NCBI GenBank assembly: GCA_021733925.1
Contig: JAIPJY010000053.1
Coordinates: 1-47,024 of the forward strand
Direction: 5' to 3'
DNA length: 47,024 bases
Origin: Prosthecobacter sp.
Lineage (GTDB): Bacteria > Verrucomicrobiota > Verrucomicrobiia > Verrucomicrobiales > Verrucomicrobiaceae
The translations under genes were made by a program, and so were the position numbers. Position 1 is the first letter of the stretch. Every line of letters starts with the position of its first letter. Positions 12,939 through 45,189 of the stretch are shown piece after piece. A model generated the notes under the pieces. The model worked only from the letters and a program-made list of their open reading frames with translations. It had not been told where the DNA came from and did not search any database.

Positions 12939-13382
12939 GCCGACATTTCTAATTGGGTCCGTTTTTCAGGAGTCAAAGAGAAAGTTGCAGGAAAATGCAT
13001 GGAGGCGCTTTTCATCTCATCTTTAAACACTCAAAAGCAGGGTGTGGTAGGTGCTGGTGCGCAGGAGAAAGCGGATTTTTCAGCGCAGCAGGAGGAGCGT
13101 GCAGATATTTTTTTTGAAACAGGCCGGCGCGGCGCGCTTGGGTCGTTTCATGCATTTGTCAAAGTGATTGTGGCGTGAAAGCGTGGCTGCCTGCATGGCG
13201 GGAGGTGATTTTGAGCACGGAAGCAGGCTGGGGTAGGTAATGGTATGTTGTGACTTTGCTGGGAAGGCTGGGAGTGCGCGTGCTCTCCAGAGGGAGCTGA
13301 AATTGATGCTCGCGTGATGGAGTGACAGATTCATGGGCAGGATCTGCCGTCTCGATATCACACAGGTTAATCCTGTTATTGG
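12939..13382. other. Upstream region of the HTH-DUF3987 operon, no gene seen
   Basis: The 444 bases upstream of the HTH gene hold only short frames without protein character. The promoter of the HTH-DUF3987 operon must lie at its left end. I see no clear -35/-10 pair and no RNA gene. Confidence 0.5.
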
Positions 13383-13664
13383 CTCCTGGAGGGAGCAGAG
13401 AGATTAGCCGGTGGTGGAGCGAAACCGCGCAGCGGTGCAGCGGGAACCACCGGCCCATGCCATGAAAACATCCCCGTTCAGGGATGCATGCCGGAGGTAT
13501 GCGAGAAGCATTCTGACTCCCCGCGGTCTCGAGGAGCCTGCGCACGACTCTCGCATACCTCCGGCATGCGCCCTTAGATTGAAGACTTCGTTCGCGTGAT
13601 CCGGTGGTTCTCGCTCGCCAAGCCTCGCTTCACCACCGGCTAATTTCCGTGCTCCCTCCGGGAG
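13383..13664. repeat. Nested palindromic element, 282 bp
   Basis: Outer imperfect arms lie at 13383-13416 and 13631-13664 (CTCCTGGAGGGAGC with GCTCCCTCCGGGAG; TTAGCCGGTGGTG with CACCACCGGCTAA). Inner perfect 21-bp arms lie at 13486-13506 and 13549-13569 (core GCCGGAGGTATGCGAGA). A further hairpin in the left part pairs GCCGGTGGT with ACCACCGGC. The centre has no plausible coding frame. The whole looks like a compound repeat or MITE relic. Confidence 0.85.
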
Positions 13665-13833
13665 CAAATGCAAGACTCTGACTCAAGAGAACAGTCTGAT
13701 CAAACATGCAATGCCTCACCCTGTTCTGCGGGACCCGATCAGATGTTCCAGCTCGCTCGGAGTTCGGGATGCGGCGGGGCTTTCCAGAATGAGCTGCTGC
13801 GAAGCCGCGAAGCGAACCTCATGAGTACTTTCT

Positions 13834-15012: not shown

Positions 15013-15141
15013 AATGACGAAACCAGAATGAGGAATGACGAAGTTCAGAGGGCGGCGTGTCAGCCTCCATACTGCAGGCTTGAAGATTCGTTATTTGGGC
15101 TTCGTCATTCCTTCGTCATTCGTCATTCTGGTTTCGTCATT
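15013..15141. mobile_element. Gene-less copy of the AATGACGAAACCAGAATGAG element
   Basis: The left end at 15013-15042 equals the left end of the 36675-37276 element. The right end (15100-15141) finishes CATTCTGGTTTCGTCATT, the inverted copy. The 129-bp interval has no gene. It sits between the two dehydrogenase genes. The inner part carries extra TTCGTCATT repeats, as if several ends had been duplicated. Confidence 0.85.
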
Positions 15142-36637: not shown

Positions 36638-36674
36638 ATTTTGAGGAGACGCTGATCGAAGTGGCGCATGTGAG

Positions 36675-37276
36675 AATGACGAAACCAGAATGAGGAATGA
36701 CGAATGAATGACGAAGAACCAATGGTGGACGACGAGGGTTTTTGGCAGACATTTTTGGAGGTGGCATCCAGTGTGGTTCGAGAAGAGGCTGATGCATCGA
36801 AGCCTGTTTTTGATTTGGAAGAGCGCACGGCCCGATTCGGAGAGGCGGTGATTCGTTTTCTAAAGCCTGTGCAACGCGATGCCTTGACCAATCGTTTGAT
36901 TGATCAATTGGTTGGAGCTTCAACGAGCGTTGGTGCGAATTACTGCGAAGCAGACGACGCAGTGTCGAAGAAAGACTTCAAGCACCGCATTGGCACCTGC
37001 CGGAAGGAATCTCGTGAGTCCAAGCATTTCCTCCGAATGATCGCCACAGCAGTTCCTGAAAAACGTCTCGCAGCCCGCGAGCTGTGGAGAGAAGCCCATG
37101 AACTCAATCTCATTTTCTCAACCATCTTCAAAAACACCCGTACCTGACGAAAATGGCGAAATCAGAATGAAGGAACAATCTCGAACGACAAAATTCACCG
37201 CACTGTGAGTTGGAATTCCCCTTCAAGCTTCGTCATTGGACATTCATTCGTCATTCCTCATTCTGGTTTCGTCATT
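36675..37276. mobile_element. 602-bp element with perfect 30-bp inverted ends carrying a four-helix-bundle gene
   Basis: Arm 36675-36704 (starting AATGACGAAACCAGAATGAG) is the exact reverse complement of arm 37247-37276. The only gene inside is a TIGR02436-type four-helix-bundle protein whose ATG begins on the last base of the left arm. More partial TTCGTCATT units extend inward from the right arm. The element lies between tpsB and the CHASE2 cyclase, ending 16 bases before the cyclase ATG. A gene-less copy with closely matching ends occurs at 15013-15141. No transposase or reverse transcriptase is inside. Confidence 0.88.
36704..37147 (+). CDS. Four-helix-bundle protein, 23S rRNA-IVS (S23/TIGR02436) family
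   Basis: A 147-residue protein with the family signatures VFDLEERTARFGEAVIRFL, NRLIDQLVGASTSVGANYCE, ADDAVSKKDFKHRIGTCRKE and LWREAHELNLIFSTIF. The family is named from proteins encoded in intervening sequences of 23S rRNA genes; a relative (bAvd) is an accessory of diversity-generating retroelements. Its biochemical role is not settled; nucleic-acid binding is likely. The start ATG begins on the last base of the element's left arm and reads on through TGAATGACGAAG; ATG 36722 (MVDDEGFW) is an alternative. It is flanked on both sides by the inverted repeat and is unrelated to the surrounding secretion locus. Confidence 0.9.
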   Translation: MNDEEPMVDDEGFWQTFLEVASSVVREEADASKPVFDLEERTARFGEAVIRFLKPVQRDALTNRLIDQLVGASTSVGANYCEADDAVSKKDFKHRIGTCRKESRESKHFLRMIATAVPEKRLAARELWREAHELNLIFSTIFKNTRT

Positions 37277-37292
37277 CCTTCCCGCCCCCCTC

Positions 37293-40063: not shown

Positions 40064-40146
40064 AAAGTACTCGCGAGCTTTAGCTCGCTCTGGAAAGGTC
40101 ATTTGCCTCCCAGATCCCAGAGCGAGCTAAAGCTCGCGAGTACTTT
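40064..40146. repeat. Palindromic repeat pair, GAGCTTTAGCTC family
   Basis: Perfect 30-bp arms, 40064-40093 and 40117-40146, with 23 bases between. Each arm starts or ends AAAGTACTC and contains its own small hairpin GCGAGC-TTTA-GCTCGC. It lies 16 bases before the PVC dehydrogenase gene. Related copies are at 43291-43588 (interrupted) and 45096-45189. Confidence 0.92.
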
Positions 40147-43290: not shown

Positions 43291-43588
43291 CACTCCTGAG
43301 CTTTAGTTCACTCTGGGGAGCTTATGATCGGGCTCGAGCATAGAAAGCGCTGGGAAAATGACGAATGAGTAAATCCGAATGACGAAAGAATAACGATGCC
43401 CCAATGACGAAGCCTGCAGTTCGTGGGAGCCTGAAACGGCTGGGATATGGTCGTTAGAAATTCGCCATGCGTTCGCTCCGACCTTCGGTTTTCGGCATTA
43501 GTAATTATTTAGTCGTTCGGATTTACTCATTCGTCATTGCAGCGAATGCCGCCCCCTCCCAGAACGAGCTAAAGCTCGCAAGTACTTT
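43291..43588. repeat. GAGCTTTAGCTC-family pair interrupted by an AATGACGAATGAG element
   Basis: The outer arms, about 43291-43316 (CTCCTGAGCTTTAGTTCACT, degenerate) and 43561-43588 (AGAACGAGCTAAAGCTCGCA...), are split by an inner element at 43357-43538. The inner ends read AATGACGAATGAGTAAATCC and its inverse. The inner element resembles the four-helix element ends only in AATGACGAA, so it is a related but distinct repeat. No gene is inside. Confidence 0.85.
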
Positions 43589-45095: not shown

Positions 45096-45189
45096 AAAGT
45101 ACTCGTGAGCTTTAGCTCACTCTGGAAAACTCCGAAGCCCCCCGCGCGTCCCTCGGAATCCAGAACGAGCTAAAGCTCGGGAGTACTTT
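45096..45189. repeat. Palindromic repeat pair, third GAGCTTTAGCTC copy
   Basis: Arms 45096-45125 and 45160-45189 (AAAGTACTCGTGAGC... and ...GAGTACTTT) differ at only a few positions from a perfect inverted repeat. The interval is 34 bases. It lies in the gap after the GH32-like gene. Confidence 0.9.

Follow-up and report, generated by a model that had tools for sequence, protein, structure and literature searches.

A 604-bp element at positions 36674-37277 (plus strand) of the window, the whole 47,024-nt stretch of Prosthecobacter sp. DNA analysed, consists of an S23-family gene enclosed by inverted arms and, with a probability of roughly 0.6, is one of a widespread set of minimal mobile elements that have S23 as their partner, resemble both rRNA intervening sequences (IVS) and REPINs, and carry arms of mostly 7-nt repeats. 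The S23 four-helix protein is best known from insertions in bacterial ribosomal RNA, and we know of no nuclease function for it. The inverted heptamer arrays around most S23 copies examined point to a type of small mobile DNA that has been overlooked. Comparison of sequences revealed the architecture, its link to S23, occupied and empty sites, relatives with related ends at a different locus and S23-less copies whose ends are specific to a family.

The left arm of the window element (36674-36722, plus strand) is composed of degenerate 7-nt repeats (AATGACG/AAACCAG/AATGAGG/AATGACG), and the right arm (37229-37277, minus strand) is its inverted copy. The two match perfectly over 37 bp (36674-36710 and 37241-37277) and, when extended, at 90% over 49 nt, so that the exact reverse-complement 30-bp ends (36675-36704 and 37247-37276) given in the preliminary description are real but understated; their heptamer make-up went unnoticed there. 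In 20 second-order Markov versions of the window the longest inverted match was at most 16 bp, against 37 bp in the real sequence; these versions and the control ORFs described below rule out a chance palindrome. The S23 gene (36704-37147, plus strand, 147 aa) is the sole ORF with a profile match between the ends, and a profile search confirmed the neighbours proposed earlier, namely an ShlB/FhaC-type (tpsB-like) gene and a CHASE2-cyclase gene. The S23 ATG does start at the final base of the 30-bp left end, as described earlier; this overlap looks incidental, because in the window-type relatives L233-L235 the nearest same-direction end is located about 150-190 nt upstream of the S23 coding match.

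The assignment of the enclosed gene to the TIGR02436 type holds, with a score of 50.4 bits at an NCBIfam cut-off of 24; the match to the Pfam family 23S_rRNA_IVP was slightly below its cut-off (33.0 versus 33.8). An AlphaFold model (eight sequences) predicts a four-helix bundle with a mean pLDDT of 83.6 and a poorly predicted N-terminal stretch, and this model matches the S23 structures 2rld and 2gsc (Xanthomonas campestris). Judging from dN/dS, which was 0.23 for the window gene and its orthologue in genome G001 and 0.02-0.23 in 12 of 14 orthologous pairs (those with estimable dS), S23 orthologues are under purifying selection. The net charge of S23 proteins is near zero (median +1, n = 135), with a value of -3 for that of the window.

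In the host genome (G000; 7.3 Mb in 127 contigs, 93% complete), nine TIGR02436 matches were found, seven of them between inverted flanks scoring at least 15, each with its own sequence; the two loci without clear arms were L008 (score 14) and L005 (11). The profile was present in 52 of the 56 relatives' genomes searched. Among these relatives, 118 loci (nine from the host) were read, best-scoring first, with weak S23 matches under-sampled, and 114 had flanks long enough for the arm test. The set was completed by 20 of 21 loci on plasmids of Cyanobacteriota, Bacteroidota, Pseudomonadota and Gemmatimonadota; L214 was excluded as a near-copy of L213, L200 and L201 (99% identical) were both retained, and the gene bounds of L215 and L216 were drawn by hand around the match. 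Applying one test throughout, matched inverted flanks (score of at least 15) were obtained for 118 of 134 S23 loci versus 9 of 385 control ORFs, the former comprising 99 of the 114 best-scoring chromosomal loci of the relatives and 19 of the 20 plasmid loci, with L203 being the plasmid locus that lacked them. Since the relatives belong to one order and orthologous loci are numerous among them, independent sites were counted as well; on this basis, inverted arms were present at 35 of 42 S23 sites and were not clear at 7. Flanks belonging to the same locus scored a median of 20, versus 9 when flanks were swapped between loci (115 loci), and they were inverted in 118 cases versus direct in 21 (n = 134). 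The S23 genes L005, L197 and L198, which have common flanks and represent one site, show no clear arms and are possibly fixed, domesticated copies. Phage records yielded one weak S23 match.

The arms themselves are repetitive in 215 of 273 cases, compared with 128 of 1424 control stretches. Their best period was 7 (121 arms), 14 (30) or 21 (8), the remainder having mainly periods of 8/16 or 10/20; periods of 7, 14 or 21 thus account for 159 of the 215 repetitive S23 arms versus 23 of the 128 repetitive control stretches. By eye, arm units of about 10 nt (GTTTGCGGTG-like) instead of 7 were seen at L028, L036, L138, L141, L152, L154, L157 and L178. A total of 61 distinct 7-mers was found in S23 arms. 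Examples of arm units are GTAATTC in Dolichospermum, AGGGAAC in Nostoc C052, GGGAGTA in Nostoc edaphicum at a site between two ribonucleotide reductase subunit genes, and AAAAGCT in Pseudanabaena between cas6 and cas4. Heptamer repeats of cyanobacteria are known as STRRs. The cyanobacterial plasmid S23 genes L199, L200, L201, L211 and L219 sit between defence genes (csx2/cas1, drmD/pglX or MmeI, cas10/cmr3, cas6/cas4), a setting that may reflect mere insertion into operons.

A scan of 798 kb of the host genome with strict settings recovered a single place with closely spaced inverted heptamer pairs, the S23 locus L001, and otherwise solo runs; a looser inverted-repeat scan gave nine pairs in these 798 kb and eight in the window, of several kinds. 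Another palindromic repeat family (AAAGTACTC...GAGCTTTAGCTC) occurs at 40064-40146 and 45096-45189 of the window and at 9611-9693 of L312, and an inverted pair with TTAGCCGGTGGTG at 13378-13669 of the window resembles the ends beside the host Y1 transposase gene L274.

Of the 48 genus genomes, 11 gave a match to the start of the CHASE2 gene. An S23 gene lies upstream of it in two of these (G000 and G001) and is absent from the orthologous site in the other nine; in G029 the tpsB-like and CHASE2 genes are 7 nt apart, and in G058 and G022 longer, unrelated stretches occupy the site. In the G001 copy, the left end begins right at the stop codon of tpsB, and an insertion breaks the right end. At the compared sites no target-site duplication was visible, the empty ones being too diverged. 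In three further genomes (G068, G061 and G014), a window-type S23 with related ends resides at another locus, the proteins being 79-82% identical over the match in one comparison and 75-77% in another; the element borders there are less tidy than in the window, because end copies also lie inside the element. Such extra end copies were seen inside the elements of L233-L235, in both orientations in L233 and L235. In a comparison of S23 pairs, in which a flank match required a blastn E-value of 1e-5 and diverged flanks can be missed, both flanks were common in 24 of 24 pairs with at least 90% protein identity, from which we conclude that movement of S23 is rare, and neither flank was common in 17 of 133 pairs at 75-90% identity. 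The proposal of the preliminary description that the S23 family may form a small element outside rRNA is strengthened by these data: orthologous loci include empty sites, relatives are found elsewhere, and the inverted arrays are tied to the S23 family instead of occurring as ordinary intergenic palindromes.

The window also contains S23-less members. The previously noted gene-less element at 15013-15141 is real, its ends differing from the 30-nt end of the S23 element at 0 and 1 positions and its interior being unrelated to S23. It is also present in G001 (L333), and among 11 relatives' loci read for this site (45 genomes matched), eight with the same gene pair show no element and two differ in a neighbour. 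The copies of G000 and G001 are 67.6% identical in the interior and 100% and 93.5% identical in the arms; together with the unshared interiors described next, this indicates that ends are kept and spacers drift. When ten S23-less interiors were compared mutually and with two S23-bearing ones, at most 23 nt were common, and no convincing similarity to S23 was seen. The suggestion that the gene-less copy is a deletion derivative was therefore abandoned: arms are common and interiors are not, so the S23-less copies are not simply deleted versions of the S23 element. A third element in the window (43357-43538), also gene-less, has the ends of the host S23 element L006 (C57:68241-68725); it splits another palindrome, and the loci L039-L041 without the element hold that short palindrome unbroken.

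Across the host genome, window-type ends form at least 7 inverted pairs, one with S23 and at least 6 without, and L006-type ends form at least 20, one with S23 and at least 19 without; unpaired matches number at least 18 and at least 19, respectively. The arms of L007 gave 10 matches outside their own element, none as inverted pairs. End-copy counts are lower bounds in many genomes. In five genomes with the cognate S23 there are at least 24, 30, 28, 5 and 27 copies of the window end, compared with a median of at least 4 in the other 43, and for each of the two families (window and L006) end copies are commoner where the cognate S23 was detected (p = 0.0027), the cognate groups having been set by hand from the list of window-type S23 matches, with ten L006-type genomes assigned from the same list. 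Many copies of the window end also occur in genomes without a window-type S23 match (at least 31 in G028, 27 in G031 and 26 each in G066 and G067), and G061 has a window-type S23, yet 5 end copies among the matches listed.

Arms differ between S23 elements and stay matched inside each element. The left arms of homologous elements gave median scores of 82.5, 24, 13 and 8 at protein identities of 90% and above, 75-90%, 60-75% and 45-60%, the two lowest bins being sampled, whereas an element's own two arms scored 20.5-24.5 in those same bins. By this comparison, the two arms of an S23 element evolve in concert. The 5' arm has G>C in 108 of 118 arm pairs and C>G in 7; a palindrome would be just as good the other way round, and one arm polarity is therefore favoured.

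A bias is also evident in the orientation of the gene. Among the 42 independent sites, 33 have S23 in sense with two co-directional neighbours, 2 have it opposed to them and 7 have it between opposite-strand genes; the corresponding values for 20 Y1 transposase loci treated alike are 6, 6 and 8 (Fisher p = 0.002 versus S23), with the neighbour strand taken from the longest open frame and Y1 loci counted singly and not per independent site. Plasmid S23 loci with annotated neighbours on both sides (L214 left out) comprised 13 in sense and 4 opposed. This sense orientation fits read-through expression or an RNA stage alike. An RNA stage, which the preliminary description considered possible, is part of the first alternative, in which the arms would hold an RNA stem that is excised in the manner of an IVS, reverse transcribed in trans and inserted, with S23 acting like Avd in diversity-generating retroelements (DGRs). 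The sense bias relative to Y1 genes and the sense placement of S23 inside 23S rRNA agree with it, the predicted fold of the element RNA joins its two ends in a pairing (z = -7.2, 20 shuffles), and the window S23 model has a fold similar to that of bAvd (4dwl), although the Foldseek match is weak (TMt 0.63-0.72, E about 0.5-0.8). RVT_1 was matched twice in the host, only on contigs C109 and C50, and no match was detected on the contig of the window (C99), whereas a DGR has its reverse transcriptase, with template and variable repeats, beside Avd. RVT_1 was, moreover, unmatched in 24 of the 52 S23-bearing genomes, including G039 (one contig, seven S23 matches), and S23 and RVT_1 numbers were uncorrelated across genomes (rho = 0.07); a reverse transcriptase as a requirement for the presence of S23 is thus rejected. 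The number of end copies likewise did not differ significantly with reverse transcriptase, and arm mismatches showed no G-U bias in the sense strand (117 versus 134 in 100 elements, 29 versus 31 in 19 elements), and selection for a sense-RNA stem is accordingly rejected as the principal constraint on them. Taken together, we regard such a retro-element as unlikely.

A second alternative, with a genomic Y1 (RAYT/IS200-like) transposase as the mover of the palindromes and S23 as a passenger, appears improbable. Y1 matches are present in 53 of 56 genomes, their number tracks that of S23 (rho = 0.45; 0.29 when partial on size), and end copies are weakly associated with Y1 (p = 0.011 for L006 ends and 0.056 for the other family). 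Against this, 17 of 20 Y1 loci have their own inverted flanks (score of at least 18), which are GC-rich and on visual inspection did not resemble heptamer arms (inverted flanks were missing at L275 and L276 and weak at L282), the Y1 genes have no orientation bias, G037 has S23 without a Y1 match, and a passenger role would leave unexplained why arms occur at S23 and not at control ORFs. With most of the Y1 genes read carrying their own, different flanks, RAYT is rejected as the cognate mobiliser of S23 elements, and the search for a shared reverse transcriptase or transposase envisaged earlier, which covered RVT_1 and Y1, ended without a proven candidate, as the former is often absent and the Y1 genes do not look cognate. 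In G039, long 7-nt arrays were seen near the Y1 transposase genes L287 and L288 (lag-7 scores 130 and 76). Similarly doubtful is an immobile S23 serving as host regulator or chaperone, with the arrays as binding sites that slippage and gene conversion have multiplied: the orthologous sites kept in all 24 of the closest pairs and the low dN/dS in 12 pairs would suit it, but it is contradicted by occupied and empty orthologous sites, by relatives with related ends at another locus and by the many sites at which pairs with the same ends lack S23.

The preferred reading, a minimal mobile element with S23 as its partner, finds parallels in known systems. The 23S rRNA IVS of Coxiella contains an S23 ORF and has a 28-bp stem processed by RNase III, according to the excerpted text of PMC4990558. 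Like the window element, 23S rRNA IVS have an S23-family ORF between stem-capable inverted terminal repeats; they sit in the 23S gene, whereas the window element resides in ordinary intergenic DNA, and S23 elements, unlike rRNA IVS, comprise several families per genome plus S23-less copies. For locus L009, no Rfam match was obtained at the gathering score, and a location inside a 23S rRNA gene was not found. On a plasmid of Azospirillum lipoferum, an S23 gene does interrupt a 23S rRNA gene, which a single Rfam LSU match traces over 292-3339 of L215. This single rRNA example has an open S23 frame in sense and arms of GAGGACG/GATGACA, and its insertion site is what we take to be helix 45. As its arms are of the same kind as those elsewhere, rRNA IVS look like a special case, that is, the same element type placed in rRNA.

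The REPIN/RAYT system, as outlined in excerpts of PMC3116915, comprises a gene flanked by its own repeats, dispersed gene-less inverted doublets and several families per genome. S23 elements are similarly dispersed as S23-less inverted doublets, at least 6 and at least 19 for two families. The REPIN partner is a Y1 transposase; here it is S23, with heptamer arms and a sense orientation unlike that of local Y1 genes. Bacterial heptamer repeats have been described before, as TAACTGA (PMC4679880) and as GGGAATC/GGGGATT (PMC4692102), and the excerpts report 7-nt arrays that are mostly intergenic, as are S23 arms. For Xanthomonas (Xcc), the excerpts of the latter paper report 70 close inverted GGGAATC pairs and repeats generally without association with mobile elements. 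The excerpted texts of both contain no mention of S23 or four helix and no link to S23, and titles and abstract starts in the open-access literature yielded no report joining S23 genes to heptamer arrays.

As for the mechanism, S23 would recognise its own arms, which may work either through pairing in a single-stranded hairpin or as a couple of binding arrays, and a host or trans-acting enzyme would supply cutting and copying. By analogy to RAYTs, which are thought to keep REPINs dispersing, S23 may be the partner that keeps its family dispersing. Its expression could be by read-through, which would account for the sense orientation. A broader proposition is offered tentatively and given somewhat less than an even chance: S23 proteins would be the recognition partners of phylum-crossing mobile elements without a known transposase, heptamer repeats would partly be the ends or relics of these elements, and rRNA IVS would be members that landed in 23S.

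We are aware of no agreed explanation for what the S23 family does or for how rRNA IVS and bacterial heptamer repeats arose. The present finding joins these three questions and makes each of them testable; if true, a REPIN-like system with a partner other than a known transposase would join those already described.
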